Source: a virus. From it: 26,222 nucleotides of DNA. Of the stretch, positions 10,408 through 25,829 are shown one piece after another. Location of the stretch: positions 1-26,222 of the IMG/VR virus record IMGVR_UViG_3300005467_000035; one strand, written 5' to 3'. Every line of letters starts with the position of its first letter. The stretch's first letter is position 1. The notes under the pieces are model-generated. The model was given only the letters and a program-made list of their open reading frames with translations. It did not search any database and had not been told where the DNA came from. The translations under genes were made by a program, and so were the position numbers.

Positions 10408-11127
10408 CTAGCTTGAAAGATCAACAGAAAACAATGACCATGTTCTAGGAAACTCAGCAGCAATGATCTTGCCCACCGCATTGGCAAACTGCCGGATCTC
10501 CCACTGAGCGTCCGGGTGCATTCGCAATGTGAGAAAAGCAAGCCAGTTTCTTAGGTTAGCGGAAGCCCTCATTCGAGAATATCTCCCTACAGGCAGCACT
10601 ATCCGAGCCAACTCTTTAGGCACCCCTAAGCGTAGTCCATCCAGATAAGTCTGTTGTGAAGCAGCATACAAGACCTCAACTGAGGCTAACCACTTCATGG
10701 CCGCATCGCCTGTTAGCTCGGCCATTCCCTCTGCTTGCTTATTACCCTTCTGGATGGTGAGGCATCGCTCTTGAGTAGGTAGATAGTTGATGTCCGGCAG
10801 AGGCGCATACCTTGCGCTCATCTCATTGTAGCTCTGAGTTCTATGCCGATGCCACTCACGAAAGACAAAGATCGGAGCCTGAACCTCAATCACCATTCCG
10901 GCAAACTCGAAGGGAGTGGAATGATGATGAGAGTACATGAATTTCAGCAGTCGCTCGTCCTGATCCCAGCCACGAAATGAGCCCTGAGTAGACTGTCGGG
11001 CAGCTTCTATTATTCCACATTCATGATCTGGATCATCCGGGTCAAAAGGATGACTGTTGGGATCACCATGCCCCCATGATTCAATGTGTTTAACATAACC
11101 CATGTCAAGCACTTTAATCGATTCCAT
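10408..11127 (-). CDS. thyX: FAD-dependent thymidylate synthase ThyX (239 aa)
   Basis: ThyX makes dTMP from dUMP with methylene-tetrahydrofolate, FAD and NADPH, supplying thymidine for phage DNA. The signature RHR-x-x-S-x-NE-x-S-x-RY is complete at residues 94-107 (RHRTQSYNEMSARY). Upstream are the FAD/dUMP-site residues in HHHSTPFEFA (about 67-76), and downstream GRYSRMRASANLRNWLAF (about 181-198), with the conserved N-x-R near the C-terminal helix. The length of 239 matches the family. The ATG at 11127 has GGGAGG about ten bases upstream and overlaps the DUF3310-type gene by 14 bases, so both are probably made together. Confidence 0.96.
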   Translation of the reverse strand: MESIKVLDMGYVKHIESWGHGDPNSHPFDPDDPDHECGIIEAARQSTQGSFRGWDQDERLLKFMYSHHHSTPFEFAGMVIEVQAPIFVFREWHRHRTQSYNEMSARYAPLPDINYLPTQERCLTIQKGNKQAEGMAELTGDAAMKWLASVEVLYAASQQTYLDGLRLGVPKELARIVLPVGRYSRMRASANLRNWLAFLTLRMHPDAQWEIRQFANAVGKIIAAEFPRTWSLFSVDLSS

Positions 11128-13405: not shown

Positions 13406-13667
13406 GACGTTGAATAACCTCGGATCGAAGCACGTAGAGGTGAGAGCCAATGGTTAGCGAGTACAGAGTTCCGCGTTCGATCATCTTACAGACTGAGCCA
13501 CGCTGGATGCCAAGTAAACGGGCCGCATCGGTCACGGTTAGAACGGCGTCGAGCGATACAAGCAAGTCTATTAGGCTTTTGGTGCGAACTAGACTGTACT
13601 CTGTAGCGGCCAGCTTCATTCGGCCACGACTGGATGAGGAGCGGACGCGGGACACGTTTGCAGACAT
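13395..13667 (-). CDS. HTH protein, candidate repressor or excisionase (90 aa)
   Basis: The C-terminal half is a helix-turn-helix of the HTH_17/excisionase type: LTVTDAARLLGIQRGSVCKM, then IERGTLYSLTIGSHLYVLRS. It has the A-A-x-x-L-G-(I/V)-x-x-x-x-V core and the wing with a G-S/R-x-(L/R) turn. Residues 1-40 are basic and Ser-rich. It is the only minus-strand gene in the right arm and ends inside the HNH gene (11-base convergent overlap). A promoter at 13677-13706 sits so close to the ATG that the transcript would be nearly leaderless, which is frequent for phage repressors. An Xis-like role is less likely because no integrase is seen. Confidence 0.72.
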   Translation of the reverse strand: MSANVSRVRSSSSRGRMKLAATEYSLVRTKSLIDLLVSLDAVLTVTDAARLLGIQRGSVCKMIERGTLYSLTIGSHLYVLRSEVIQRLKP

Positions 13668-13676
13668 AACGGCGCG

Positions 13677-13706
13677 ATTCTAGCGCAAGCCGGGATCGCT
13701 TGGCAA
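13677..13706 (-). promoter_or_regulatory. Promoter of the HTH gene
   Basis: On the minus strand TTGCCA (13706-13701) and TAGAAT (13682-13677) are separated by 18 bases and match sigma-70 -35 and -10 boxes at four and five positions. Transcription would begin about three bases before the ATG at 13667. Confidence 0.6.
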
Positions 13707-13736
13707 GGGCGCTTTCAAACAATGGAGGGTTGAGAT

Positions 13737-13997
13737 ATGAAACGGATCATTGCAGGTTTAGCAGTGGCAGTGATGCTGGGCTTTGGGGCAGCCTGTAAGC
13801 AGCAAGCGACTGTGGCTAGCGCCGATGCACAGCAAGCCTCTGTGGAGCAGAAGGCGAAGCGGAATACAGTGGCAAAAGGATCGCATGAGTGTGGAGCGCC
13901 GACCAAAGCCGGTGGGCAGTGCAAGCGGCGGGTCAGCAACGGCGACGGGACCGATTCGGCGGTTGAAGCCAGGTGTTGGATGCATCGGGTGAAGTAA
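13737..13997 (+). CDS. Exported cysteine-cluster protein, possible lipoprotein (86 aa)
   Basis: An N-terminal signal (MKRIIAGLAVAVMLGFGAAC) has a weak lipobox, GAA-C, with Cys20 as the possible lipid site. The C-terminal half has a short metal-binding-like motif: CGAPTKAGGQCKRR, then RCWMHR. The order C-x-A-x-TKAG-x-QC-x-x-x...C-x-x-H matches the DUF5763-type cluster known from small phage and bacterial proteins. The combination of an export signal and this cluster is unusual. GGAGGG lies about seven bases before the ATG. It could be an envelope protein made early in infection; the function is not known. Confidence 0.7.
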   Translation: MKRIIAGLAVAVMLGFGAACKQQATVASADAQQASVEQKAKRNTVAKGSHECGAPTKAGGQCKRRVSNGDGTDSAVEARCWMHRVK

Positions 13998-14032
13998 GGC
14001 AAAGGGTTTTCTAGCGCGAAAGGGAGGGTCAA

Positions 14033-14290
14033 ATGGAGGACTGGGAAGACCAAGACAGGTTGTTAGTACGGGTTGGAGGCTCACATAAGCTGATGCAAAG
14101 GCAATATAGAGCTTTTGAGGCTGCGGGAATTCCAATCAGGGGCGTGGGGTCTGCTTCTCTGGGCAGTAAAGCTCAACACGCAATCATTCCAGATACAATA
14201 GAGGCTAGAGCATTGCTGAAACGAGTAAAGGGGAGCGTAGTTAGAGCGCAATGGTCATGGCTGAAAGTGGACAAGGGATTGCCAAGCTGA
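14033..14290 (+). CDS. Hypothetical protein (85 aa)
   Basis: The protein begins MEDWEDQDRLLVRVGGSHKL and continues with a helix (MQRQYRAFEAAGIPIRGVGS) and a basic C-terminal part (ARALLKRVKGSVVRAQWSWL). GGGAGGG is five bases before the ATG. I do not recognise a family. It stands in the early cluster of conserved and unknown genes after the repressor. Confidence 0.65.
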   Translation: MEDWEDQDRLLVRVGGSHKLMQRQYRAFEAAGIPIRGVGSASLGSKAQHAIIPDTIEARALLKRVKGSVVRAQWSWLKVDKGLPS

Positions 14291-14348
14291 AACGTGGATT
14301 GCAGCCTCAAAGGTTGCCGCTTGGCTTGCTTGTAGATTTGAGGGGAAT

Positions 14349-14358
14349 GGAGGGTTAG
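14349..14358 (+). promoter_or_regulatory. Ribosome binding site GGAGGGTTAG (first copy)
   Basis: The purine stretch GGAGGG lies in the right place before the ATG at 14362. The same ten bases recur before the gene at 14864 (14850-14859), and their exact complement occurs twice further on (15524-15533 and 16583-16592). Confidence 0.75.
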
Positions 14359-14361
14359 ATT

Positions 14362-14778
14362 ATGTCAACAGATTGGACCGGATACGAAAGAGTCTGGGGC
14401 GAGTTTCAGCCTAAGATAGAGGAGTTTATGAAAGAGCTTGCAGAGCTGTTTGGCTCTGAGGTCTGGGTTGATAACGGCGACGACTACGGGGTTAGGTTCA
14501 CCATTGGCGATAGCCAAAGCGATGATAGCATCGATGTGAGCTTGTCGCTGTGGGATTCGGGAGATTCCGATGACGGGATCTACGGCCAGCATGGTAACTG
14601 GGTGTTTGACATTGTGGAGGTCGGTGGGCGAATCATCGGAGGCATTACGCCCGAGAATTACACCGACCGCGTTTGGGTGGACTACTCAGACCTTGCGGAG
14701 TTTCGATTCCGGTTGAACGGGATCATTGACAGCAAGGATGACATTCTGAGAGTGCTGAATCAGAATGCGAAACAGTAG
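14362..14778 (+). CDS. Acidic hypothetical protein (138 aa)
   Basis: The protein begins MSTDWTGYERVWGEFQPKIE. About 29 of its 138 residues are Asp or Glu, against about 11 Lys or Arg, for a net charge near -18, with acidic runs such as NGDDYG, SDDSIDVS and DSGDSDDG. The middle is beta-rich (VRFTIGDSQ, SLSLWDSGD). This charge pattern is seen in phage DNA-mimic proteins and also in ordinary acidic proteins. It could bind a host DNA-binding protein, which is inference. GGAGGGTTAG precedes the ATG. Confidence 0.65.
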   Translation: MSTDWTGYERVWGEFQPKIEEFMKELAELFGSEVWVDNGDDYGVRFTIGDSQSDDSIDVSLSLWDSGDSDDGIYGQHGNWVFDIVEVGGRIIGGITPENYTDRVWVDYSDLAEFRFRLNGIIDSKDDILRVLNQNAKQ

Positions 14779-14849
14779 TTCCCTTTCTCGCGTCTTCGAC
14801 GCTGCGAGGCGGTGAGAATGTGGTAGGGTAGCGGCAGATTTTGAGGGTT

Positions 14850-14859
14850 GGAGGGTTAG
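14850..14859 (+). promoter_or_regulatory. Ribosome binding site GGAGGGTTAG (second copy)
   Basis: This site stands before the ATG at 14864 and is identical over ten bases to the site at 14349-14358. TTGAGGGTT just upstream makes it a doubled purine-rich region. Confidence 0.75.
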
Positions 14860-14863
14860 AACA

Positions 14864-15508
14864 ATGGAACATGCAATAGAGACATTCAAGCAGGACGGTT
14901 ACAAGATCAAGATTTATCAGGATGAAGATCCGATGAATCCCAGAGAGAACGATAACCTCTGTGTCATGGTGTGTGAACATAGACGCTATGAGCTGGGCGA
15001 CCGCACAGCGACGGAGACGGAGCTTGAAGCAGTGAGACGTGGAGGATTCGAGTTGTTGGAGCGGTATCTGAGAATGAAAGAGGGAGCTGTTTGCCTTGTG
15101 CCGCTGGGCTTGCTGGATCATAGCGGGCTGCATATGTGGACTGGAGGCGGCAGTCATTGGAGCGATAGTGCGGGCTGGGATAGTGGGACGGTCGGTTTTG
15201 CTTACATCACCAAGCAGAGAATGGTCGAGCTTTGCGGCACCGCTGACTATAAGACGGCTGATTTTGCAGGGACCGCGCAGCAGTGGGCAGAGAAGCAGAT
15301 CGACGGTGAGGTTGAGGAGTATGACCAGTATTTGAGGGGCGACGTTTACGGTTACGTCATCGAGGGCGAGGACGGCGAACACGTTGATAGCTGTTGGGGT
15401 TTCTTTGGATCGGATTATGTAGTCAAAGAGGCGAAGTCGGCGGCGAAGGCTCAACGGGCGCATGAGACTGAACAGGTTTACAAGCTGCAACAATGCTTGG
15501 CGTTGTAG
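14864..15508 (+). CDS. Conserved phage protein of unknown function (214 aa)
   Basis: I recognise the pattern from many phages: an N-terminal IKIYQDEDPMNPRENDNLCV, MVCEHRRYELGD, a central LVPLGLLDHSGLHMWTGG, then WDSGTVGFAYITKQRMVE and a C-terminal GDVYGYVIEG followed by VDSCWGFFGSDYV. The motif order DED-x-x-NPRE, HRRY-x-LGD, (I/L)-P-L-x-L-x-DHSG and WDSG-x-VG(F)-(A/I)Y is typical of this protein, which remains uncharacterised. It probably folds as one alpha/beta domain. It stands among early genes, which suggests an effect on the host or on replication. The start has a good ribosome binding site. Confidence 0.82.
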   Translation: MEHAIETFKQDGYKIKIYQDEDPMNPRENDNLCVMVCEHRRYELGDRTATETELEAVRRGGFELLERYLRMKEGAVCLVPLGLLDHSGLHMWTGGGSHWSDSAGWDSGTVGFAYITKQRMVELCGTADYKTADFAGTAQQWAEKQIDGEVEEYDQYLRGDVYGYVIEGEDGEHVDSCWGFFGSDYVVKEAKSAAKAQRAHETEQVYKLQQCLAL

Positions 15509-15516
15509 CTGGGATC

Positions 15517-15533
15517 GGAGGGACTAACCCTCC
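15517..15533 (+). promoter_or_regulatory. Hairpin GGAGGG / CCCTCC with anti-RBS sequence
   Basis: GGAGGG (15517-15522) pairs perfectly with CCCTCC (15528-15533) around ACTAA. The 3' arm with its flank, CTAACCCTCC (15524-15533), is the exact complement of the binding sites at 14349 and 14850. It lies just after the stop of the preceding gene and about 100 bases before the next start. Confidence 0.6.
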
Positions 15534-15583
15534 CGCTGGGCCGCGACAGCGTGAACAACGCGGGTTATTTCATCAGGTTATTG

Positions 15584-15610
15584 AGTCGTAGCCGAGATCG
15601 ACGCGGCACA
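15584..15610 (+). repeat. 27-bp direct repeat in a leader, copy 1
   Basis: The 27 bases starting AGTCGTAGCC and ending CGGCACA are repeated exactly at 16691-16717. Both copies lie just upstream of an ATG (25 bases before 15635 and 25 bases before 16743), in otherwise different leaders. They contain a GCCG/CGGC pair that could form a small stem. Confidence 0.85.
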
Positions 15611-15634
15611 TATTCTTAGATAGGAGCTAGTCCG

Positions 15635-16111
15635 ATGACAAAAGCAAAAAGCATCGAGAGACAGCAAGCAGTTGACGCCCTAAAAGAACAACTCCGGCCC
15701 GGCGATGTAGTTTATACGACACTGAAGCACGTTAGCCGCTCGGGGATGATGCGAAGCATCAACGTTCACCTGATTCGTGATAACCAGCCTCAATGGATTG
15801 CGCGACGTGTCGCCACGGCGATTGACTTCAGCTTTGACGATAAGCGCGGGTCAATTAAGGTGCAAGGATGCGGAATGGACATAGGGTTCGAGGTTGTTTA
15901 TAACCTTGGCCGCGTGCTATTCCCCAACGGGTTCGGTGAAAAGTGCAGCGAGTGCGATCAGCGGCCTACGAGCCCGGAACATGCCAAAGCGGTTAGAGTT
16001 GTCGGCTCTGTGGGCCATCACGTACATGCCTGTAAATTCCGTGGGCGCAACGGCGATCCTTCCGGCTGGGATAACGACGGTGGGTATGCCCTTCAGCAAT
16101 GTTGGATGTAG
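15635..16111 (+). CDS. Conserved phage protein of unknown function (158 aa)
   Basis: The pattern is one I know from many phages: LRPGDVVYTTLKHVSRSGMM, RSINVHLIRDNQPQWI, then a central KVQGCGMDIGFEVVYNLGRV, LFPNGF, and a C-terminal DNDGGYALQQCWM. The marks HVSRSGM-x-R-x-I, GCGMD-x-GF-x-VVY and GGYAL-x-(H/Q)-x-W(L/M) are conserved. A CSEC/H...C cluster (C-S-E-C, then HHVHAC) suggests an added zinc-binding insert. TAGGAG is nine bases before the ATG. The gene follows a long leader that carries copy 1 of the 27-bp repeat. It is uncharacterised. Confidence 0.82.
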   Translation: MTKAKSIERQQAVDALKEQLRPGDVVYTTLKHVSRSGMMRSINVHLIRDNQPQWIARRVATAIDFSFDDKRGSIKVQGCGMDIGFEVVYNLGRVLFPNGFGEKCSECDQRPTSPEHAKAVRVVGSVGHHVHACKFRGRNGDPSGWDNDGGYALQQCWM

Positions 16112-16123
16112 GGGGTTGAAGCT

Positions 16124-16225
16124 ATAATCGATCCTGAAATTGCAAACCTGGTCATCAAGGCTGCGATAGCAGCGGCTTTGTTGATTATTGCGGTTGGGTT
16201 GGTAACGTGGAGGGGAGAGAGATGA
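16124..16225 (+). CDS. Possible membrane peptide with a non-AUG start (33 aa)
   Basis: The frame reads IDPEIANLVIKAAIAAALLI, IAVGLVTWRGER and ends in a TGA that overlaps the next gene's ATG (ATGA). It looks like one transmembrane helix with a positively charged end. No ATG, GTG or TTG is usable at its 5' end; ATA at 16124, about eight bases after GGGGG, or ATC at 16127 would be the starts. The closing ATGA overlap is the same type used by many real genes here. The call is weak because non-AUG starts are rare. Confidence 0.3.
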   Translation: MIDPEIANLVIKAAIAAALLIIAVGLVTWRGER

Positions 16226-16557
16226 AGCTATACAAGATGCAGGTAGTTTTGACTAACGCTAAGGGAGATACAATTAGAACAGTTCCCGGAAAGTGCTTGG
16301 GCTTGTTGGCGGTAACGCCCACAGATGACAAACCTTCATCCCGGCGACGGAACATCACGCACATTCCTACAGGGTTCAAGCTCTGTCCCACGTTTGATAA
16401 CCAACAACAAGCGTTGGAGGCTTTGCCCAAGTGGGTAGATGCGGCTGATTGGAATTTTTTCAAGGCGCAAACCATCAGCGATGATGGGTTCAGTCATCGA
16501 GTGACGCCGGAAGCGCAAGCAGCATGGGAAGCCGTTAAAGCCGCCGGATTACGCTAG
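16222..16557 (+). CDS. Hypothetical protein (111 aa)
   Basis: From the ATG at 16222, with GGAGGGGAGAG immediately upstream, the protein begins MKLYKMQVVLTNAKGDTIRT. It continues with TVPGKCLGLLAVTPTDDK, a basic turn (SSRRRNITH), and a helical C-terminal end (EAQAAWEAVKAAGLR). A GTG at 16207 would add five residues. The function is unknown. Confidence 0.65.
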   Translation: MKLYKMQVVLTNAKGDTIRTVPGKCLGLLAVTPTDDKPSSRRRNITHIPTGFKLCPTFDNQQQALEALPKWVDAADWNFFKAQTISDDGFSHRVTPEAQAAWEAVKAAGLR

Positions 16558-16582
16558 GAATTGAGTTGACCGCCGCCGCCTA

Positions 16583-16592
16583 CTAACCCTCC
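16583..16592 (+). promoter_or_regulatory. Anti-RBS sequence CTAACCCTCC, copy 2
   Basis: CTAACCCTCC here is the exact complement of the ribosome binding sites GGAGGGTTAG at 14349 and 14850 and is identical to 15524-15533. It lies in the leader of the gene at 16743, next to a GCGGC-AAA-GCCGC hairpin. Confidence 0.55.
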
Positions 16593-16662
16593 GCGGCGCG
16601 GCAAAGCCGCTGGCCCATTCGTGGGAGAGTCCTGGATGGGCTGGCGGTCCCCTCGTGAGTAC

Positions 16663-16680
16663 AACGTTTGGGGAAACGTT
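16663..16680 (+). promoter_or_regulatory. Perfect 7-bp inverted repeat in a leader
   Basis: AACGTTT (16663-16669) and AAACGTT (16674-16680) flank a GGGG loop, ten bases before copy 2 of the 27-bp repeat. This may be an operator or an RNA hairpin. No T-run follows. Confidence 0.5.
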
Positions 16681-16690
16681 AATCCCTGCC

Positions 16691-16717
16691 AGTCGTAGCC
16701 GAGATCGACGCGGCACA
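16691..16717 (+). repeat. 27-bp direct repeat in a leader, copy 2
   Basis: This is an exact copy of the sequence at 15584-15610, again 25 bases before a start codon (16743). The sequences on both sides differ from copy 1, so the repeat itself seems to be under selection. Confidence 0.85.
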
Positions 16718-16742
16718 GACTAACTGACTAGGAGAATTAAAA

Positions 16743-17198
16743 ATGACAACAACAACAACAACCGAGACTGATCCTTCGATGGGCACCTTCTACGGACTTC
16801 GCGTGCCCTACAAGATGTGGGCCGCGCTTGGGCTCAGGGTTTCCGCGTCGTCCAACTGCGAGGCGCGGGTTGACGGGTGGGGCGGCTCAAACGGCGACCG
16901 CCAAGAAGCCTACATTTTCGAGCTGTGCGAGCGGGCAAAAGCAGACGGCTTCACTGACCCTACGGAGATAGTCCGCCGCGCAATCGTACTCTACGCTGAC
17001 GATCGTCCGGCGCGTGCCGCTACTGATTTGGCCGCTGCGATCCGCGCCGCCGCACACGCAGACCACGAAGCACTTACCAGTCTCGCTTCGGCAATCCGTA
17101 GCAGCGAGACTCAAACGGTGGTCGAGCGCATCGTCAGCCGGCTAAGTGAGCGCACGCAGTACGCCGTGCGCGCCCAGCTCAAACAGCGTCCCTTGTGA
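16743..17198 (+). CDS. Hypothetical protein (151 aa)
   Basis: The protein begins with a threonine run (MTTTTTTETDPSMGTFYGLR), then VPYKMWAALGLRVSASSNCE and a helical core, YIFELCERAKADGF, EIVRRAIVLYADD. The C-terminal half is an Ala-rich helix (ATDLAAAIRAAAHADHEAL, then QTVVERIVSRL). AGGAG lies about eight bases before the ATG. The leader of about 185 bases carries the second repeat copy, the second anti-RBS sequence and two hairpins, so expression is probably regulated. The family is not recognised. Confidence 0.65.
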   Translation: MTTTTTTETDPSMGTFYGLRVPYKMWAALGLRVSASSNCEARVDGWGGSNGDRQEAYIFELCERAKADGFTDPTEIVRRAIVLYADDRPARAATDLAAAIRAAAHADHEALTSLASAIRSSETQTVVERIVSRLSERTQYAVRAQLKQRPL

Positions 17199-17283
17199 CC
17201 CTTTCGCTTCTAGCGGGTTGAGCGTATCAGCCCGCTTCAACATGCATGGGAAGGGGAGACATGGAAGCAATGAGTACACGATT

Positions 17284-17613
17284 ATGATAAAAGGCAATCA
17301 ACATTTCATTCTACCAAGGCAACCGCTGGAAGGGGATGATCGGCCGCGAAATGCTTTTGGTTATCTCATTGGATTTGGAGAGGCTTACTCAGCTTACTAC
17401 AACGAGAGGGACAAACTTATGGAACAGCAACAGCAGCAACCGACGACTGATGTAGCAGAGACAACCGTTATGCAATGCCTTTCGAGGTTGCCCAGAATCA
17501 GGGTTCATGAGAGAACCGCGATGAGCCGGACGGTTCAGAGGCTTGCAGGTGAGAAGCGGTTGAACGTGAGGCAGGATCGAGAGGGAAGATGGTGGATAAG
17601 CAGGAGAGCATAA
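17284..17613 (+). CDS. Hypothetical protein with a winged-helix-like C-terminus (109 aa)
   Basis: From the ATG at 17284 the protein reads MIKGNQHFILPRQPLEGDDR, continues with an aromatic helix (NAFGYLIGFGEAYSAYYN), a Gln-rich linker (MEQQQQQPTT) and a C-terminal module, MQCLSRLPRIRVHERTAMSR, TVQRLAGEKRLNV, RQDREGRWWISRRA, shaped like a winged helix. A frame-shifted eight-residue leader (17261-17287) ends in an ATGA overlap with this start, which has no ribosome binding site of its own. An in-frame ATG at 17242 is the other option (123 residues). It may be a DNA-binding regulator. Confidence 0.55.
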   Translation: MIKGNQHFILPRQPLEGDDRPRNAFGYLIGFGEAYSAYYNERDKLMEQQQQQPTTDVAETTVMQCLSRLPRIRVHERTAMSRTVQRLAGEKRLNVRQDREGRWWISRRA

Positions 17614-17810
17614 TGGATAGACCAACTGGTAAATGGCGTTGTCGGGCCTGTGGCCAGATTTGTGACGGGGCCGATGTTTACATTGATCCTCGATGGCAAC
17701 GATACTACTGTGCAGACTTGTTCTGCGGAGGCACAGTTGATCGGGTAGAAACAGAGGAACGAGATGAGCAAAGGCGGCTGGATTGGGCTAGATCAAAAGG
17801 CAATCAATGA
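17613..17810 (+). CDS. Zinc-ribbon protein (65 aa)
   Basis: The ATG at 17613 overlaps the previous stop (TAATG) and has GGAG seven bases upstream; an in-frame ATG at 17589 would add eight residues. The protein has CRACGQICDGADVYIDPRW, then YYCADLFCGGTVDRVETEER. The four Cys in two pairs make a zinc-ribbon pattern, and the C-terminus is a charged helix. It starts a chain of four tiny coupled genes. The function is unknown. Confidence 0.7.
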   Translation: MDRPTGKWRCRACGQICDGADVYIDPRWQRYYCADLFCGGTVDRVETEERDEQRRLDWARSKGNQ

Positions 17811-17959
17811 TTTGGCTCTACTGTCTAACCTGTAACCAGGAGCTATGCTTTCCTGAGTGGTTGACCTTGGAGCAGTTCAAGGTTGAGCTGGGGAAGCACG
17901 GCTGTAAGGTGGTAAGGGTTAGATGGAGCGGGAGAATCGAAAGGCTGACGGTGCAATGA
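17807..17959 (+). CDS. Small CxxC protein (50 aa)
   Basis: The protein reads MIWLYCLTCNQELCFPEWLT, LEQFKVELGKHGCKVVRV, then a basic end (RWSGRIERLTVQ). A CxxC with further Cys residues (C6, C9, C14, C33) may bind zinc. It starts and stops through ATGA overlaps (17807-17810 and 17956-17959). It is too short for a family call, but the overlaps strongly support coding. Confidence 0.65.
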   Translation: MIWLYCLTCNQELCFPEWLTLEQFKVELGKHGCKVVRVRWSGRIERLTVQ

Positions 17960-18099
17960 TCTGTTGTTGTTGTAATGTTGCTGACGATAGAACCTTATAC
18001 TGGTTCATTGATCCAGAGACAGGCGAGCGATGCGCTGCTCATGCTGAATGTGGTGATGAACATGGGCTCGAAGAAGGCCAAGAGGCAGTTGACTTATGA
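17956..18099 (+). CDS. Small Cys-rich protein (47 aa)
   Basis: The protein begins with four adjacent cysteines, MICCCCNVADDRTLYWFIDP, and has CAAHAECGDEHGLEE in the middle, so Cys and His residues could bind zinc or another metal. The start and the end both use ATGA overlaps. It is the second of three tiny proteins made in sequence. The acidic C-terminal part is probably helical. The function is unknown. Confidence 0.65.
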   Translation: MICCCCNVADDRTLYWFIDPETGERCAAHAECGDEHGLEEGQEAVDL

Positions 18100-18275
18100 A
18101 TCCTGAGCAAGAGATCAAGCTGCTGCTAGATAAGGTTTTCGACTTGGCGTTGAAAGCGAATGCCACGTTGACGGTTTACAATGATGGAGTCGTTGTAACG
18201 GTTGCGGGCCGGTTCGTCGGATCGTGGGCGGGCCGGAAGGTTATTCAGTTGGCGGGTGGGAAGACGCCTGCGTAG
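18096..18275 (+). CDS. Hypothetical small protein (59 aa)
   Basis: The protein begins MNPEQEIKLLLDKVFDLALK, then a strand-rich part (ATLTVYNDGVVVTVAGRFVG) and a basic tail (AGRKVIQLAGGKTPA). The ATGA overlap with the upstream gene continues the coupled chain. The stop lies eight bases before the next ATG. I see no motif. Confidence 0.6.
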   Translation: MNPEQEIKLLLDKVFDLALKANATLTVYNDGVVVTVAGRFVGSWAGRKVIQLAGGKTPA

Positions 18276-18283
18276 GAGATGTG

Positions 18284-18580
18284 ATGGAAGATCAACACGG
18301 GAAGCACAGAGTTTGTAAGATAACTGCAAGGGGTCCGGTTGTACTGGATGCCCCGGTGGCTTTGTTTGACCCCATAGAGATTTGTGATGGCAATGGGAAA
18401 ATCACTCTCCAAATGATCGATGGGGAGCCTTTTCTTGTGCTTCAGAAATTTTGCGGTGAGTGCCAGACCTTGCTTCCAGTTATGATGCTTTTGACTCAGG
18501 ATGCGACTATAGAGCTATTGCATCTATGTGATTTGCTAATGGATACAGGAGAACTTCTATCTAAGATGCAGGAGGGCTAG
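18284..18580 (+). CDS. Hypothetical protein (98 aa)
   Basis: From the ATG at 18284 (TAGGAG upstream) the protein reads MEDQHGKHRVCKITARGPVV, then a beta-rich core (PVALFDPIEICDGN, ITLQMIDGEPFLVLQKFCGE) and a C-terminal helix (DATIELLHLCDLLMDTGELL). A CGEC pair around residue 70 with C11 may bind metal. No family is recognised. Confidence 0.6.
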   Translation: MEDQHGKHRVCKITARGPVVLDAPVALFDPIEICDGNGKITLQMIDGEPFLVLQKFCGECQTLLPVMMLLTQDATIELLHLCDLLMDTGELLSKMQEG

Positions 18581-18582
18581 AA

Positions 18583-18711
18583 ATGCTGAAACGACTACTA
18601 CAGAGATTGATTCGCCCGAGCTGTGACGGGGTGATATGGGAGAGAAACAAGTGGGGATTTATGAGGAGGAAGCTGAGCCTGCCTGAGCATATCAAGAGGA
18701 GTTGGAGCTAG
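18583..18711 (+). CDS. Small basic protein (42 aa)
   Basis: This gene reads MLKRLLQRLIRPSCDGVIWE, then RNKWGFMRRKLSLPEHIKRS. It is rich in Arg and Lys, with an amphipathic N-terminal helix. AGGAGG is eight bases before the ATG at 18583, a very good site, which supports coding. It is the last gene before the promoter of the RepA-like ATPase. The function is unknown. Confidence 0.65.
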   Translation: MLKRLLQRLIRPSCDGVIWERNKWGFMRRKLSLPEHIKRSWS

Positions 18712-18779
18712 TTGGAAAGTAACTATCCAGATTCCAGCCATACCTTTCACTTTTCTTGCTCCCTCTCAACTGATAGTTG

Positions 18780-18808
18780 TTGAGCCTTGACGTGGTTGGT
18801 AGTATTAT
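18780..18808 (+). promoter_or_regulatory. Promoter upstream of the RepA-like ATPase
   Basis: TTGAGC (18780-18785) and TATTAT (18803-18808) are separated by exactly 17 bases, matching sigma-70 boxes at four and five positions. It drives the replication block starting at 18932 and lies just upstream of a cluster of repeats. Confidence 0.6.
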
Positions 18809-18821
18809 CAACAAGACCAGC

Positions 18822-18900
18822 CTCATTGAGAACGTAGGGCCAGGGGCAGGTTCGACGGAACTTTGAGTTCCTGGCCCATCATTCAACCGGCCTCAATGAG
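18822..18900. promoter_or_regulatory. Paired CTCA-N-TGAG sites and nested inverted repeats
   Basis: CTCATTGAG (18822-18830) and CTCAATGAG (18892-18900) are 9-bp inverted repeats in similar contexts (GCCTCA-x-TGAGAA). Between them GGGCCAGG (18837-18844) pairs with CCTGGCCC (18870-18877), and GGAAC pairs with GTTCC around TTTGA (18857-18871). They could be operators or part of a replication origin beside the ATPase gene. Confidence 0.5.
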
Positions 18901-18931
18901 AATGGAATTACGTTCTTGCTGAGGTACTATC

Positions 18932-19906
18932 GTGGCTCAACGACTGCGCCTTGTCTCTGCACCTGAACTCGCCAACTATCCATCAGTCAAACATCTAGCT
19001 GATACTCACCTAGTAGCCAAAGGCTTAAACGTCCTGTTCGGCCCTAGCGGTTGCTTCAAGAGTTTCTACATGCTTCATCAAGCCTTGTCGATCGCACAGA
19101 CGGAGCCGGTTCTCTACGTTGCTGCCGAGGGCGTTAGCGGGCTGAACATCAGGATTCAAGCCTGGTGTGACTATTGGCAAAGATCCGCAGATAACCTTCA
19201 CTTCATCTTGCATGAGATAAACCTCAGAGAAACCCCTGATGATTTTATAAAGCAGATTAAGACAGACTTGCCGGGGGTTGCTCTGGTTGTTTTCGATACC
19301 TACGCTCGATGCCTTGTTGGGGGAGATGAGAACGCGGCCAAAGATACCGGAATGGCTATACAGAACTGCGCCAAGATGCAGAGAGGTTTGGATTGTGGGG
19401 TAACGTTGGTTCACCACAGTAACAAGGCTGAGAGGGGCGAAAGAGGCAGTAGCGCGATGCGTGGCGCCGCCGATGCGATGATCGAGATGACGGAGGCGGA
19501 TGGAATCATTCGCGTAATGTGCTCAAAGGCGAAGGACGGCCAGCCTTGGGAGACAGAGCTATACAGGTTCTTGCCGGTTCTGGAATCGGGAGTGATGCTG
19601 CCTGCTGAAGTCGTGCCTGAGTCCTCGGAGCTGACCAAGAACGGGCTACGGATTTTGGAGTTTTTGAGCCTACCAGTCTTCGATCCCTACGGAGCGACGG
19701 CAAAACAGATTAGCGAGGCGCTAAACATTCCAAGCACTAGCCTTTTCAGGATTTTGAGCAAGCTAAAGAGCGACTCCCACTTGTACCAAGCCCAAAAAGG
19801 CGATCCATACCACATAACTGACTTTGGCAAAACCATGCTTAACGAGCGATTACCAAGAAGCAGGCCAGGGGCTAAAGTTGTGGATATAAAGGATTACAAG
19901 GATTGA
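18932..19906 (+). CDS. RepA-like AAA/RecA-fold ATPase, GTG start (324 aa)
   Basis: This belongs to the phage AAA_25/RepA-type family of RecA-fold ATPases and probably loads or drives a replicative helicase. Walker A is FGPSGCFKSF (residues 36-45), with Phe where the last glycine of GxxxxGK normally stands; similar FKS forms occur in phage relatives. Walker B is LVVFDTYARC (D122), and VTLVHHSNKAERGERGSSAM gives sensor and H-motif regions. The C-terminal 90 residues look like a winged helix (ATAKQISEALNIPSTSLFRI). The GTG at 18932 has GAGG about nine bases upstream. It is likely to be needed for DNA replication. Confidence 0.8.
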   Translation: MAQRLRLVSAPELANYPSVKHLADTHLVAKGLNVLFGPSGCFKSFYMLHQALSIAQTEPVLYVAAEGVSGLNIRIQAWCDYWQRSADNLHFILHEINLRETPDDFIKQIKTDLPGVALVVFDTYARCLVGGDENAAKDTGMAIQNCAKMQRGLDCGVTLVHHSNKAERGERGSSAMRGAADAMIEMTEADGIIRVMCSKAKDGQPWETELYRFLPVLESGVMLPAEVVPESSELTKNGLRILEFLSLPVFDPYGATAKQISEALNIPSTSLFRILSKLKSDSHLYQAQKGDPYHITDFGKTMLNERLPRSRPGAKVVDIKDYKD

Positions 19907-20068
19907 CTACCATCACTACCAAACAGTACCAACGTGTTTTTTGGTAGTTCGTCTAAGCCACTACCACCCAACACCCCACTCTTAGGAGTGGGTGTGTGGA
20001 AGTAGACCGAGATTTGGTGTTGACATTGTTTCCCACATAATGATAGGTTAGCAAACATAGGAGAACCT
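19907..20068 (+). promoter_or_regulatory. Intergenic region with CTACCA repeats and hairpin
   Basis: This 162-bp gap starts right after the RepA-like gene. ACTACCAAA (19915-19923) and TTTGGTAGT (19940-19948) form a perfect 9-bp inverted repeat; further CTACCA copies stand at 19907 and 19970. CCCACTC-TTAG-GAGTGGG (19975-19992) is a perfect hairpin without a T-run. TTGACA (20020-20025) then provides a consensus -35, with TAGGTT 18 bases later. It may be an operator or an origin. Confidence 0.6.
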
Positions 20069-20302
20069 ATGGAACTTGAGATAGAACGTGGGATTCCAAT
20101 TACTCCTCGGCGTCTGGGTGAACTGGCCGGGATGTCAAACACTTTGCGGGCCATGAAAATCGGGGAGAGCTTCTGGATTCGATTCACCCTACATCGTAGG
20201 ACTTCTTTGCATTCTTGCGGTCGTGCTATCGGCATAAAGCTGGCCATCAGGCGAGAGGATCAGGACGGAGTAAAGGGGCTAAGGGTATGGAAACTGGAGT
20301 AA
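20069..20302 (+). CDS. DUF7303-like small phage protein (77 aa)
   Basis: The protein begins MELEIERGIPITPRRLGELA, then AMKIGESFWIRFTLHRRTSL and a closing KLAIRREDQDGVKGLRVWKL. The order I-x-x-GIP-(I/L), MK-(I/V)-G-(E/D)-SF, then (K/R)-x-x-(I/V)-R...G-x-RVW(K/R) is a pattern I associate with short phage proteins of the DUF7303 type, often next to recombination genes. Usually the middle part is a short helix with a basic HTH look. GGAGAACCT precedes the ATG, which has its own TTGACA promoter upstream. Confidence 0.7.
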   Translation: MELEIERGIPITPRRLGELAGMSNTLRAMKIGESFWIRFTLHRRTSLHSCGRAIGIKLAIRREDQDGVKGLRVWKLE

Positions 20303-20667
20303 CAGACCGTTATAACGGTTCTTCTAGCCCTTCCAGCCTCCAAGCCGGGGCCGAGTCGGGCCAGAGGGTCTGTCTCCTGAAAAGCTGCTCCAAGAGCTTC
20401 CAGCCCCGTCTACCGAGCCAGCTCTACTGTGAGCCGGCGCATGGGGCGAGGGCCAGGATCGAGCGCTATTTGGCCAAGAAGCGAATGGCTGAAATGAAGA
20501 AGCTCAGGGAAGAACCGATTAAAGACCCAGTAGCATTCATGGGCTGGCTTGCTGGGGTTCAGCCTGAACTAAAGTTAAATTTAGTTCAGGAGATCATGAC
20601 AGAGCACATGATAGAGGTACGCTGTGTCTATAGACATAAAGGTCATCATCTGGCCAAGAAAGGATAG
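20287..20667 (+). CDS. Zinc-knuckle protein (126 aa)
   Basis: From the ATG at 20287 the protein begins METGVTDRYNGSSSPSSLQA, then VCLLKSCSKSFQPRLPSQLY and CEPAHGARARIERYLAKKRM. The pattern C-x4-C-x(K)-x-F-x-P-R...Y-C-x-x-x-H is a zinc knuckle related to the CxxC-x-x-F-x-x-x...YC-x-x-x-C motif of phage proteins. The C-terminal part is helical (DPVAFMGWLAGVQPELKLNL). The gene overlaps the previous one by 16 bases and has GGGG about eight bases before the ATG. The role is unknown; DNA binding is plausible. Confidence 0.6.
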   Translation: METGVTDRYNGSSSPSSLQAGAESGQRVCLLKSCSKSFQPRLPSQLYCEPAHGARARIERYLAKKRMAEMKKLREEPIKDPVAFMGWLAGVQPELKLNLVQEIMTEHMIEVRCVYRHKGHHLAKKG

Positions 20668-20670
20668 ATC

Positions 20671-21000
20671 ATGAAGCAGGTGCTTATCATTCTACTACTG
20701 GCCTTTGCTCAGAACATCTCATTCAGCATCGTATCGAGGTCCAGAAACCGGAGCAGCTTTACCTACCACATGATTGCTTCCGTCTTCAGTAACGGAATCT
20801 GGTTTCTGACCTTTCGGCAGCTTGTGTTGGGTGAGATGAACTGGCTTCTGTTTGTGCCCTACACGATAGGCACAGTTCTAGGTAGTTTATCAGGAGCCAA
20901 GCTGTCTATGTGGATCGAAGCGAAGATTGGTGCAGTGTCGGATGGGCATATTCCAATGATACGAACTGGAGTTCCTGAATCGACGGTAGCAGAACGGTAG
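20671..21000 (+). CDS. Conserved phage membrane protein (109 aa)
   Basis: There are about three membrane segments: residues 3-18 (QVLIILLLAFAQNISF), 35-55 (MIASVFSNGIWFLTFRQLVL) and 58-75 (WLLFVPYTIGTVLGSLSG). The motif AFAQN-x-SF-x-(I/L)-VSR-(S/A)RN...YH-x-(I/V)ASV-FSN-G-IW-x-L recalls small membrane proteins of phages, of unknown role. AAAGGA is seven bases before the ATG. It lies inside a DNA-metabolism operon, which is odd, and may modify the host membrane. Confidence 0.72.
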   Translation: MKQVLIILLLAFAQNISFSIVSRSRNRSSFTYHMIASVFSNGIWFLTFRQLVLGEMNWLLFVPYTIGTVLGSLSGAKLSMWIEAKIGAVSDGHIPMIRTGVPESTVAER

Positions 21001-21033
21001 TTATCTTTGAAGCAGCCCCCCAAGATTTTATGG

Positions 21034-21063
21034 TTGACAAGTGTGTATGCGTGCGTGTAGTCT
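21034..21063 (+). promoter_or_regulatory. Promoter of the nuclease operon
   Basis: A consensus -35, TTGACA (21034-21039), is followed 18 bases later by TAGTCT (21058-21063), a weak -10. The ATG of the zinc-ribbon gene follows ten bases after, leaving a very short leader. Confidence 0.5.
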
Positions 21064-21072
21064 TGGCTCGTT

Positions 21073-21204
21073 ATGAGAAAGAAACAAACATCAGATCAAC
21101 TACGCTGCGTCAAGTGTAATTCGTCTAATACCCTTGTCAAAAAGAACAATGGTAAGCCGCTGCGCTGGTGCAGGAAGTGTGGGCATGAGGAGCCGGTGAA
21201 ATGA
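21073..21204 (+). CDS. Zinc-ribbon peptide (43 aa)
   Basis: The whole protein is a zinc ribbon: RCVKCNSSNTLVKKNNGKPL, then RWCRKCGHEEPVK, with CxxC and CxxC at residues 12-15 and 33-36. It has a basic N-terminus (MRKKQTSD). There is no clear ribosome binding site. The stop overlaps the next ATG as ATGA. It looks like a small DNA-binding partner of the nuclease made from the same message, which is inference. Confidence 0.7.
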   Translation: MRKKQTSDQLRCVKCNSSNTLVKKNNGKPLRWCRKCGHEEPVK

Positions 21205-21359
21205 GCACCATAACGAAGTGTGATAATTGTGAGAAGGTTCTCAAGCAAGGCATTGGGGAGCGATTTGCTGTTGAGTGCCCTGATGGTTGGTTTCACTTCT
21301 GTAATTGGGAATGCCTTTATAAATGGGTTATCCGGGGAGTCAAAGGAGACAAGAAATGA
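21201..21359 (+). CDS. MYM/FCS-like zinc-finger protein (52 aa)
   Basis: The protein has CDNCEKVLKQGIGERF, then ECPDGWFHFCNWECLYKWVI. The sequence CxxC-x-K...G...F-C-x-x-x-C-(L/Y)-x-W is close to the small treble-clef MYM/FCS-type fingers of phage proteins. It starts with ATGA inside the zinc ribbon gene and ends with ATGA inside the nuclease gene. Two small zinc proteins therefore precede the nuclease on one message. Confidence 0.72.
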   Translation: MSTITKCDNCEKVLKQGIGERFAVECPDGWFHFCNWECLYKWVIRGVKGDKK

Positions 21360-22849
21360 CAGCAGCTTATCTTACATCGAGAAGCCGAATCGAAAGCCAG
21401 CAGAAATGCCCGAGGCTTCGCTTTCTCGAAAAGGATTTCGAGGGCAGAGGCTTGGAAACCATACGGCTCAGCTTACCGTTGGCTACAGGTTCAGCGGTGC
21501 ATAAGGGGGTTGAGGTTCTGTTGAAGATAGATCAGCTTGGTTTGTCGGTGCAAGAAGTCCTTGAGTTACAGGATGACTTTATGTATGCGGGGTTGGAGCA
21601 GCTTGAGGTTGGGATGGCTACGATTGACATTGCTGTAGCTGCTGCTCTATCAGAATTCAAACAAGCCTATGAAACACATGAAGTAGATGTGACTATCAAC
21701 GAGTCGATGCAGTGGATTCAGGACGAGCACTGCGCGTTGATCGAGCTGATCCTGAGAATGTGGGCCGAGCATCCTGATGGGTTGCCTTGGCTGGTTGCGA
21801 CGTATGAGGTGCTGGAGGTGGAGCGGTGGGACTTGCTACCGCTGACGGCGGGTACGCCCTGCACTGAGTGCAGCAATACTGGCTGGGTCTATAACCCCGA
21901 GCTGAGCGACAAGCAGATCGAGTGTGAGAGTTGTGGTGGGAGCGCCAGCATCGGCGGCATCACCCTACGCTCCCGCGCAGACGCGTTGCTTCGCAAACGC
22001 AGCGACGGATCGCTCTACGTCTGGAGCCTGAAGACAGCCAACGGCTGGGACAAGAGGCAGGAAAACGCTAACAGGCATGACGTTCAGGGGATCAGTGAGA
22101 TGGTTTGTATTGAGTATAGGCTGAGACGGGTAGCTGATGATCCTGAAAGGGCTGGAGGGTTACTGCCAACAGGGCAAGTAGCCCCGAGGGTTGATGGAAC
22201 CCAGATGACCTACCTCATCAAAGGCCGGCGAGAACTAAACGAAAAGCTGAATGTCTACCAGATCAAGAATGGTTTGCTTCACCCTTGGGCTATCGACGCC
22301 GGGTTACTCGGCGAGAAGGAATATGCTCATAGCTACTGGTACAAATGTGAGCTTCCGCACCAGAAAGGGACTACTAAAGGTGGTAAGCCGATCATGTGTG
22401 AGGGCAATGCTAATCATCGGCTGAATGATAGCTGGCAGCAGGTCAATATCTGGGAGCAGATGACGATTAAAGAATGGGTTGCAAAGCTGCTCGCCGGGGA
22501 GGTCCAGCCAAGCCTGCCATTGCCGACTGTAGTTATCAATCCTGTTCCTTATTTCAGGAATGATGTTGAGGTTGAGGATTGGCTAGAGCAGGTCAAGGCT
22601 CAAGAAGAAACAGCTCAGCTTGGAGTAGAACTGGTGAAATTGGCTAAGGCTAACAATGATGAAGCCGGGGTTCGATCTCTGCTGAATATCCACTTCAGAC
22701 AACACCGAAATCGGTGTGACTACCCTTACAAATGTGCAATGCAGGACATCTGTTGGGGGCCATCGGCGATAGCCGATGATCCGGTTGGTTCTGGGCTGTA
22801 TCGGCTGAGAGATGAGGTTGAGATGGAGGTTACTACAGATGACAGGTAG
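21356..22849 (+). CDS. PD-(D/E)XK nuclease with Fe-S and zinc cysteine sets (497 aa)
   Basis: This resembles RecB/AddB/Cas4-family exonucleases that process DNA ends for recombination. From the ATG at 21356 (ATGA overlap), residues 7-20 (TSRSRIESQQKCPR) give the N-terminal Q-(K)C-P motif; GSAVHKG (45-51) is the conserved G-x-x-x-H. LRSRADALLRK has the acidic D209, and VWSLKTANGW carries the catalytic-type K226, but a Ser (S224) stands where (D/E)-x-K normally has its acid. C18 with C454, C460 and C466 (CDYPYKCAMQDIC) matches the 4Fe-4S set of Cas4/AddB. CTEC and CESC (169-172, 190-193) form a separate zinc ribbon. It is likely the recombination nuclease of this phage. Confidence 0.8.
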   Translation: MTAAYLTSRSRIESQQKCPRLRFLEKDFEGRGLETIRLSLPLATGSAVHKGVEVLLKIDQLGLSVQEVLELQDDFMYAGLEQLEVGMATIDIAVAAALSEFKQAYETHEVDVTINESMQWIQDEHCALIELILRMWAEHPDGLPWLVATYEVLEVERWDLLPLTAGTPCTECSNTGWVYNPELSDKQIECESCGGSASIGGITLRSRADALLRKRSDGSLYVWSLKTANGWDKRQENANRHDVQGISEMVCIEYRLRRVADDPERAGGLLPTGQVAPRVDGTQMTYLIKGRRELNEKLNVYQIKNGLLHPWAIDAGLLGEKEYAHSYWYKCELPHQKGTTKGGKPIMCEGNANHRLNDSWQQVNIWEQMTIKEWVAKLLAGEVQPSLPLPTVVINPVPYFRNDVEVEDWLEQVKAQEETAQLGVELVKLAKANNDEAGVRSLLNIHFRQHRNRCDYPYKCAMQDICWGPSAIADDPVGSGLYRLRDEVEMEVTTDDR

Positions 22850-23018
22850 CATTTTTCCAGAGCGCATTCAGGCAAAGGCCGAAGACTATAAAGAGTGGCC
22901 TACTACCTTGAGGCTTACGGAAGAAATGGGTAGCGAGATCACGGTTTTTCTAACTGCCGATGTTCGAGAAGCCTTGATCGAGGCTTTGCAGAACCCCGAA
23001 AAGGAAGAAGATGTCTAA
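22839..23018 (+). CDS. Small hypothetical protein (59 aa)
   Basis: From the ATG at 22839 (GGAGG about ten bases upstream) the protein reads MTGSIFPERIQAKAEDYKEW, then TLRLTEEMGSEITVFLTADV and REALIEALQNPEKEEDV. It overlaps the nuclease by 11 bases and the ATPase by 8. A beta strand pair and an acidic helix are visible. It is probably a coupled partner of the recombination proteins. The function is unknown. Confidence 0.65.
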   Translation: MTGSIFPERIQAKAEDYKEWPTTLRLTEEMGSEITVFLTADVREALIEALQNPEKEEDV

Positions 23019-23943
23019 CAGAGCTTCAACCCTCATCATCTACGGCGGCTCGGGCTCAGCCAAAACCACGAGCCTTGGTTGGCTAGCTCGCCACGTTCAC
23101 AGGACAACCGGCAAGATAACCCGCTTAGTGAGCGCCGATGGCGGCGGCTGGGACCCGATTCAGGACTGCATTGACGATGGGATCATTGAAGCATGGCATG
23201 TAGGCAGCCTGAACGACCCAACGGCGACGATGAGAAAACTCAGCCGGTTCGAGTGGCCGGTTGTCGAGAACGGGAAGCTGGTTATGAAGCCTACTTCAGC
23301 AGAACAGCGAGAGAAGATCGGGGCTTATGCTATTGAAGGGCTGACCAGCGTTGGCGATGCAGTTATGAGATCGCTGCGTAGTAGGGGATCGAAGTTGGGG
23401 GAGAGCCCAAATTACAGCTACGCCGAGGGTACTGAAACCTTCTATGGCTCTAACCAGAGCTACTATGGTTTCATCCAAGACGTTCTCTATGAGTTTGTAA
23501 CCAGCTTCTCTCAGTTGCCGGTTCAGTATGTAGCCTGGACCGCGATGGAAGCCAAGGGAGAGGACGACCAGAGAGTGCCAATCTATGGGCCGGCGATTGC
23601 GGGCAAGAAGGCCGTCAGCAAGGCTCCTCAGTGGTTCGGAGATTGTCTGCATCACGACATCATAACGGTTGAGGAAACAGGCAAGGATGGAAAACCAGTT
23701 ATAGATGTGAAGACCAAGGCGAAGGTCTTGAAAACCGAGATCAGGGCTTACTTCACTAATCATCCCGATCCGGCTACGCAGATTGTCTACCCCGCGAAGA
23801 TCAGGGTTCCAGCAGCAAGGCTGGCTGAGCTGAGAGCCGACGAGAAGTTCAAGAATGGTTACTTCGAGCCGAGCTTGACCGGGGGGCTGGATTGGCTGTT
23901 GGAGATTGAGGAACGCTTACGGAAGGGGGGTAACACGAAATGA
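23011..23943 (+). CDS. Recombination-type RecA-fold ATPase (Sak4-like), 310 aa
   Basis: The N-terminal Walker A, YGGSGSAKTT (residues 11-20), lacks the last Gly (Ala17 instead). The next stretch (TGKITRLVSADGGGWD) and a Walker B-like strand (AYAIEGLTSVGDAVM, near 110) fit a RecA-fold ATPase of the AAA_24/Sak4 type, which supports single-strand annealing and recombination in phages. VAWTAMEAKGEDD may hold the sensor region. It stands between the nuclease and a putative ssDNA-binding protein, the typical place for Sak4. AAGGAAGAAG precedes the ATG, which overlaps the previous gene by 8 bases. Confidence 0.72.
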   Translation: MSNRASTLIIYGGSGSAKTTSLGWLARHVHRTTGKITRLVSADGGGWDPIQDCIDDGIIEAWHVGSLNDPTATMRKLSRFEWPVVENGKLVMKPTSAEQREKIGAYAIEGLTSVGDAVMRSLRSRGSKLGESPNYSYAEGTETFYGSNQSYYGFIQDVLYEFVTSFSQLPVQYVAWTAMEAKGEDDQRVPIYGPAIAGKKAVSKAPQWFGDCLHHDIITVEETGKDGKPVIDVKTKAKVLKTEIRAYFTNHPDPATQIVYPAKIRVPAARLAELRADEKFKNGYFEPSLTGGLDWLLEIEERLRKGGNTK

Positions 23944-24206
23944 TAAATGATGAACAAGATATTCTGGATGGATTATCCGAACAGATCAGTCTGGCTCTGA
24001 GGCAACTGGACCAAGAACAGGAAGCACCGGGATTTAATCCTGATAGAAGTGACTCCACAATACGAGACTTAAAGAAAAAGGTTGTCCGGCTGAGAGAAAT
24101 CCGTACTGATCTTGAGCACGTTTTCTTTGGCGGGATTCTGGATTATTTCCCCAGTTCAGTACCAACCCCTGCTAAGCCGGTTGAGGATGATGGGATTCCA
24201 TTCTGA
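23940..24206 (+). CDS. Small helical protein with an SSB-like acidic tail (88 aa)
   Basis: The body is helical with heptad-like spacing (ILDGLSEQISLALRQLDQEQ, then TIRDLKKKVVRLREIRTDLE). The last residues, VEDDGIPF, closely resemble the C-terminal tail of bacterial SSB proteins (DDDIPF), which docks many repair and replication enzymes. No OB-fold is visible, so it is not an SSB itself. It overlaps the ATPase gene as ATGA. It may recruit host or phage partners to the recombination complex (inference). Confidence 0.65.
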   Translation: MINDEQDILDGLSEQISLALRQLDQEQEAPGFNPDRSDSTIRDLKKKVVRLREIRTDLEHVFFGGILDYFPSSVPTPAKPVEDDGIPF

Positions 24207-24243
24207 TAAGTAGTAAAACCTTTGCAAAGGAGAGCAAGAACGT

Positions 24244-24837
24244 ATGACCGACGAAGTGAAATCTGTTGATATCAACTCACTGGACCTCGAAGAAGATGAG
24301 GTTCAATTCGACGCTGCGGCGGACTCTACGGAGCAGCCACCGCCAGTGCCGGATGGTATTTACCGAGCTAAACCACGTTTCGGGCAAGGACATCAATGGA
24401 TGGGCAAGTTCAAGGACGGCAAGCCCACGTCAATGTGGCCAAAGCCCAATGTGCAGTTTGTGATTCAGGCACCGGGGACTCCCCAGGACGGCCAGCTTGT
24501 GTTTGATATGTGCTCGACCATGATTCGCTTCAATGGTGCCAGTCGGATCAGCACGATCCTGTCAAAGATGGGGCTGGAGGCCGAGGTGGGCCAGTGTCGA
24601 GGCCACAAGGATCTCGTGAAGCTGTTCGAGGTGGCACTTGAACAAGGCCGAGAGGTCAACATTGAGACTGAGTGGAAGGCTCAAGTCAAAGGGCCAGACG
24701 GCAAGTACAAGGATGTGAAGGTTGGAATGAAGAACTTCCCCAGCGACGGTAATGGGGGGTTCAGTCCTGTGGTCAGTGTGCCGGGAACTGGAGATGTAGT
24801 CGCTCAGGCGACAATCAAGAAGTTCATTGCCATCTAA
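24244..24837 (+). CDS. Putative ssDNA-binding protein of the recombination block (197 aa)
   Basis: An acidic N-terminus (VDINSLDLEEDEVQFDAAAD) is followed by VPDGIYRAKPRFGQGHQWMG, then strand-rich stretches (NVQFVIQAPGTPQDGQLVF, ARIS-like GASRISTILSKMGLEAEV) and a C-terminal strand part, VNIETEWKAQVKGPDGKYKD. The pattern of an OB-like beta barrel and the position after nuclease and ATPase fit a phage ssDNA-binding protein of DUF669/Erf-type neighbourhood. The ATG has GGAGAG about 12 bases upstream. Structure comparison would settle this; I would not give a gene name. Confidence 0.5.
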   Translation: MTDEVKSVDINSLDLEEDEVQFDAAADSTEQPPPVPDGIYRAKPRFGQGHQWMGKFKDGKPTSMWPKPNVQFVIQAPGTPQDGQLVFDMCSTMIRFNGASRISTILSKMGLEAEVGQCRGHKDLVKLFEVALEQGREVNIETEWKAQVKGPDGKYKDVKVGMKNFPSDGNGGFSPVVSVPGTGDVVAQATIKKFIAI

Positions 24838-24876
24838 GCAACGCCTGCCTCTTGCAGATAGCAGCAGGAGGTTGGC

Positions 24877-24999
24877 TTGCTTACGATGCCTCGGCCTGGT
24901 GGTAGCCAGTGCAATTTACCCAAGGGCCATCAGGCCGGGGCTCTTTTAGGAACTTATGCGGCAGCTTCAGCGAGGTGTAACAAGCGCTGGCTGTCGTAG
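24877..24999 (+). CDS. Possible small protein, TTG start (40 aa)
   Basis: A TTG at 24877 stands five bases after a perfect AGGAGG and opens a 40-residue frame beginning MLTMPRPGGSQCNLPKGHQA and ending ARCNKRWLS. Two Cys and one His could bind a metal. No overlap with neighbours supports it, so the call rests on the ribosome binding site alone. Confidence 0.35.
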   Translation: MLTMPRPGGSQCNLPKGHQAGALLGTYAAASARCNKRWLS

Positions 25000-25060
25000 G
25001 CTGGTGGCCGGCTCGTGCTGCGAATGAAGCTGCTACTCCCTTTCATCGAGGAGAAAGATA

Positions 25061-25279
25061 ATGATTGGTGACTACTTTCGATTGCGTAGTTGGACGGCTT
25101 ACGGCCAAAAACTACCCAAAGGCCAGCCGGGAATTATCTCACAGAGCTTCAAGGCCAATCCCGGCAAGCATGTGGTAGTTGTGGTCATCGGCGAAGTTCG
25201 GGACAGCGCTGAGATAGATGATGAGTATGTCAAGGCGCAGTTAAACCTATTACAAAGTCGCATCCTAAAGGGCGAGTGA
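25061..25279 (+). CDS. Hypothetical protein (72 aa)
   Basis: The protein begins MIGDYFRLRSWTAYGQKLPK, continues GQPGIISQSFKANPGKHVVV and ends with a helix (DEYVKAQLNLLQSRILKGE). A VVVVVIGEV strand stands in the middle, so a small alpha/beta fold is likely. GAGGAG is eight bases before the ATG. A gap of about 220 bp precedes it. The family is not known. Confidence 0.65.
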   Translation: MIGDYFRLRSWTAYGQKLPKGQPGIISQSFKANPGKHVVVVVIGEVRDSAEIDDEYVKAQLNLLQSRILKGE

Positions 25280-25286
25280 GAACTTT

Positions 25287-25810: not shown

Positions 25811-25829
25811 CCGAAAGGGAGGCTACACA

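Follow-up and report, generated by a model that had tools for sequence, protein, structure and literature searches.

Conserved intergenic stem-loops complementary to a shared ribosome binding site at gene-cassette borders of a phage operon

The window analyzed here is the whole 26,222-nt stretch of viral DNA in IMG/VR record IMGVR_UViG_3300005467_000035, from a phage for which metagenome DNA is the sole source. Its leftward genes include those for likely portal and terminase proteins, and the 239-aa protein encoded on the minus strand at 10408-11127 resembles a ThyX thymidylate synthase by eye. In the continuation of the phage, contig L135 encodes at 13601-16477 a 958-aa protein that, by eye, resembles a fusion of a uracil-DNA-glycosylase-like domain with a family A DNA polymerase. 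The genes studied here form a rightward, probably early operon. The first of them share an extended ribosome binding site (RBS), (T)GGAGGGTT(AG): GGAGGGTT is found ahead of the gene at 13737, and the ten-letter form GGAGGGTTAG occurs on the plus strand at 14349-14358 (RBS1), preceding the 138-aa gene at 14362, and at 14850-14859 (RBS2), preceding the 214-aa gene at 14864. Window genes farther right have RBSs of other sequence. The reverse complement of GGAGGGTTAG, hereafter the anti-RBS, occurs at 15524-15533 (A1) in leader 1, upstream of a 158-aa gene, and at 16583-16592 (A2) in leader 2, upstream of a 151-aa gene. All four 10-mers are exact, as the original prediction had claimed from the letters alone, and there is no fifth copy in either orientation across the window. 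In G001, a 61 kb contig of this phage that over the stretch compared equals the window from position 13348 on, the identical four matches recur and there are none besides; the 63 kb contig likewise lacks additional copies.

It had also been proposed that ten exact bases, twice on each side, exceed chance. By dinucleotide shuffling this is correct, with a mean of 0.01 such matches expected in the window (100 shuffles). The four copies are not independent of each other, since both forward copies are RBSs of one shared type and the forward pair thus counts as one event, and a transcript of this length has many exact 10-nt complementary pairs, with about 136 of them lying within 13690-26222. When RBS regions were compared with intergenic sequence, three 10-mers were seen against 0.28 expected (Markov null; P about 0.02). 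A composition-matched control, in which the complement was taken without reversal, gave two 10-mers against these three, while for nine-letter matches the figures were 12 observed and 3 in the control. The excess of RBS/anti-RBS complementarity above chance is real but modest. The control count for 10-mers is what would be expected if the leaders had no regulatory RNA function and the matches arose from a simple GC hairpin past a stop codon in leader 1 (an mRNA 3' stabilizer or weak terminator), a stop codon with CCCTCC directly after it in leader 2, and G-rich RBSs, an account to which we allow a sizeable minority chance. The nine-letter counts speak against this account, as does the fact that both leaders match TTAG beyond the Shine-Dalgarno core. 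Better support than the window statistics comes from conservation in a relative.

That relative, L022 (IMGVR_UViG_3300005549_000012), is the sole close and informative one in the collections searched; its counterpart of the 214-aa protein is 76% identical. No related phage was found by DNA match in the annotated GenBank collection, the 324-aa protein is absent from the bacterial and archaeal genome contigs searched, and no leader could be recognized by eye next to farther homologues of the 158-aa and 214-aa genes (L009-L019, L023-L026). The RBS GGAGGGTT is common to this phage group and stands in L022 ahead of four genes, at about 4118, 4697, 5001 and 5720. L022 keeps 10 of the 10 anti-RBS bases in leader 1 and 9 of 10 in leader 2, a degree of conservation that the account without function does not readily explain. 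RBS2 is unchanged at L022 4987-4996, the position of RBS1 reads GGAGGGTTTA ahead of an unrelated 72-aa gene, and A2 is altered to CTAACCCTCT. As to the covariation between sites and anti-sites by which the original prediction could be judged, in this one relative RBS1 and A2 have changed without compensation, RBS2 and A1 have not changed, and no covariation supports long-range or trans pairing.

Comparison of the two phages shows that genes have been exchanged while the sequences between them stayed. The 138-aa gene of the window stands in place of the 72-aa gene of L022, the 158-aa and 116-aa genes stand in place of a 285-aa gene, and the 151-aa gene is inserted. The intergenic parts are 78-93% identical, whereas the intervening genes are unrelated: they share 21-29% of their nucleotides, and their proteins gave no significant match. 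As the breaks in homology fall on or close to the beginnings and ends of genes, the leaders border the swapped genes. The proximal part of leader 1 (15509-15583, plus strand) is 78% identical to L022 5610-5687; homology stops at 15583, 51 nt before the start codon, and these next 51 nt are only 18% identical. Exactly at this border begins a 27-bp direct repeat, AGTCGTAGCCGAGATCGACGCGGCACA, whose first copy (15584-15610, plus strand) opens the incoming cassette with the 158-aa gene and whose second, exact copy (16691-16717, plus strand) precedes the inserted 151-aa gene; from either copy it is about 25 nt to an ATG that has a TAGGAG RBS. The repeat is not present in L022, and its 26-base core was found in no viral contigs other than those of this phage; it is possibly a donor promoter or linker. 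The arrangement resembles the promoter-stem-loop (PeSL) cassettes responsible for modular shuffling in T4-like phages (Comeau et al., cited in PMC4503421) in that small exchangeable genes are separated by stem-loops whose sequence is conserved. Unlike in PeSLs, no early promoter was recognized in the present elements, and the phage need not be T4-like; a scan for plus-strand sigma-70-like sites found none at either element, although this phage may use promoters of another type. A second parallel is offered by the short boundary sequences conserved where mosaic modules meet (PMC3029335), with homology breaking near gene starts and ends and conserved intergenic linkers, although the linker here also bears RBS and anti-RBS sequences. 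Copies in both orientations near cassette borders and the inverted repeat within leader 1 would also suit a DNA-level operator or recombination site rather than an RNA element. We consider this very unlikely: the forward copies are spaced from start codons like RBSs and show the variation expected of RBSs, neither the 61 kb nor the 63 kb contig holds further copies, and the longer conserved intergenic stretches of 70-100 nt account better for recombination.

In the window, leader 1 is predicted to fold into a local hairpin, GGAGGG-ACTAA-CCCTCC (15517-15533, plus strand), with pair probabilities of 0.9-1.0. The 5' arm (15517-15522) begins 8 nt past the stop codon of the 214-aa gene, and A1 comprises most of the loop together with the 3' arm (15528-15533). 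The stem is kept in L022 as GGAGGG-ATCTAA-CCCTCC, with a loop one base longer. When the whole 2.47 kb from 14290 to 16760 was folded, the local pairing of A1 remained at 0.9-1.0 and the expected number of pairs with RBS1 or RBS2 was 0.00; opening A1 costs 4.5-10.9 kcal/mol depending on the folding-window setting, more than A2 in every setting. The proposal that leader 1 hides the earlier sites finds no support in these folds. The overall folding energy of the leader is not unusual (z of -0.7 in the window and -1.8 in L022). The RBS that follows leader 1 in the window is TAGGAG, which is not complementary to the anti-RBS and whose pairing is no higher than in shuffles. Because homology ends at 15583 and the unrelated cassette carries this TAGGAG RBS, leader 1 of the window has an anti-RBS and a local hairpin without a target in cis. 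The hairpin pattern matches 101 stretches of viral contigs, close to a rough estimate of chance; most of these, and those outside this phage group, look unrelated. Such frequency is in line with leaders of no function, and other gaps of the operon can form hairpins after stop codons too, as judged by eye.

A different fold is predicted for leader 1 of L022. There the anti-RBS pairs with the RBS of the next gene (RBS3, again GGAGGGTTAG), which lies 72 nt downstream. The predicted stem joins UCUAACCCUCC with RBS3 over 11 complementary nt, with 9.9 of 10 core pairs expected, and the local-hairpin state is less stable than this closed state by about 5 kcal/mol. RBS3 has a paired probability of 0.999, compared with 0.62 +/- 0.14 when the leader was shuffled and the RBS held fixed, and 0 of 300 shuffles reach it; the pairing was noticed once the anti-RBS was already known, and as the RBS is shared by several genes, a matching cassette could sit at this leader by luck. 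Leader 1 of L022 is a predicted sequestor/anti-sequestor arrangement. The full sequestration of RBS3 in the prediction is a further point against leaders devoid of function. The original prediction is partly supported, in that masking of an RBS by an anti-RBS is plausible, with the RBS of the next gene as the partner and probably not RBS1 or RBS2. Leader structures that sequester the RBS of genes e, soc, 49, I-TevI and mobE are known from T4 and its relatives (PMC3014915), where the Shine-Dalgarno sequence lies in a helix with the upstream leader, as predicted for L022, and where the gene is freed by a later transcript whose start lies within the helix. Unlike T4, the present leader 1 has a local GGAGGG/CCCTCC hairpin as the competitor, close to the stop codon upstream, and the window lacks the partner RBS. 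A search across viral contigs for RBS/anti-RBS pairs at 60-90 nt found, besides L022, only L140/L141, and was rejected as support; these are two copies of one lineage in which the next start codon found is some 100 nt away from GGAGGGTTAG, and a handful of such pairs are expected by chance on a rough estimate.

Leader 2 is built differently; the attempt to treat the two leaders as one duplicated element was abandoned, as they barely align outside an 11-mer and the 27-bp repeat. Positions 16561-16663 are 93% identical to L022. A first, GC-rich hairpin (16571-16604, plus strand) holds A2 in its loop, and next comes a long, very stable one (16606-16648, plus strand; about -30 kcal/mol). The latter has two differences from L022, GU to AU and UG to CG, and both preserve pairing, which, with two events, hints at a selected RNA fold; it has no U-tract and no Rfam match. 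In L022 the 285-aa gene runs into this element and has its stop codon inside CTAACCCTCT; the TAA at 16584-16586 within A2 is the counterpart of that stop codon. Moreover, 16557-16586 (plus strand) reads as a remnant of the 3' end of the replaced gene, GIELTAAAY* (L022: ELELTAADN*), its first position being the final base of the 116-aa gene's stop codon. It thus seems that, in the lineage of the window, a gene ending as in L022 gave way to another, and A2 may owe part of its match to an old stop codon. An in-frame stop codon at this place is also what leaders without function would lead one to expect.

A2 lies in an open loop (opening cost 0.1-1.0 kcal/mol), and duplex plus opening energies amount to -15.5 kcal/mol with RBS1 and -15.0 kcal/mol with RBS2; for neither of them do the 3.9 kb contain a better site. 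Since A2 is open and the energy is about -15 kcal/mol, pairing with RBS1 and RBS2 is physically possible. The loop core ACTAACCCTC is conserved and the flanks vary. These features would suit a model in which leader RNA, chiefly through the open loop of leader 2, pairs with RBS1 and RBS2 in cis or in trans and turns down translation of the first genes of the operon once transcription has passed 16.6 kb, as a delayed feedback. We regard this as unlikely. In the global fold A2 has few expected pairs (0.22 of 10 with RBS1 and 0.48 of 10 with RBS2), pairing in L022 is weaker and uncompensated with GGAGGGTTTA and CTAACCCTCT, and ribosomes covering the RBSs would compete. A terminated fragment, which had been suggested as the acting RNA, finds no basis at either element: the scan for intrinsic terminators (GC-rich hairpin and U-tract) found none. 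The window had no Rfam match at gathering score, and 13650-17700 had none up to E=1. A broader version, in which GGAGGGTTAG marks a translational regulon of the first operon genes and downstream open anti-RBS loops act on all of them as delayed feedback past 16.6 kb, seems quite unlikely. Control of RBS1 and RBS2 by the leaders is possible but unsupported. With respect to its own downstream RBS, leader 2 shows in neither phage more pairing than the shuffles do.

The best explanation, to which we give a probability of roughly 0.45, is that these are conserved intercistronic stem-loops at cassette borders that can sequester an RBS in cis and were uncoupled from it in the window by cassette replacement. 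Two conserved stem-loop elements would sit between genes and edge exchangeable cassettes. Leader 1 would be a two-state element: in the open state the anti-RBS pairs locally with the upstream GGAGGG, and in the closed state it would pair with GGAGGGTTAG of the immediately downstream gene. A ribosome ending at the upstream stop codon would contact the 5' arm and might decide which of the two forms. The closed-state partner is present in L022; in the window it would have been replaced, if the exchange ran in that direction, by the unrelated cassette with the 27-bp repeat and the TAGGAG RBS. The local hairpin would then be dominant at A1, and the match with RBS1 and RBS2, 0.7-2.2 kb off, would be a by-product of the shared RBS type. 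The copy in leader 2 would lie in a hairpin loop over the former stop codon of a replaced gene. If the cis switch of L022 is real, cassettes may swap between phages such that the leader of the old gene stays and loses its target. If the shared RBS really is a target of the open leader-2 loop, a set of early genes would be under the control of a single short sequence.

Matches of this kind are not confined to A1 and A2. At 14780, 15524, 16583, 17199 and 24845, at most 30 nt past stop codons, 8-10 nt are complementary to the RBS regions of other genes, and overall such intergenic matches, which were counted post hoc and which a pyrimidine-rich composition could explain, outnumber those in the controls.
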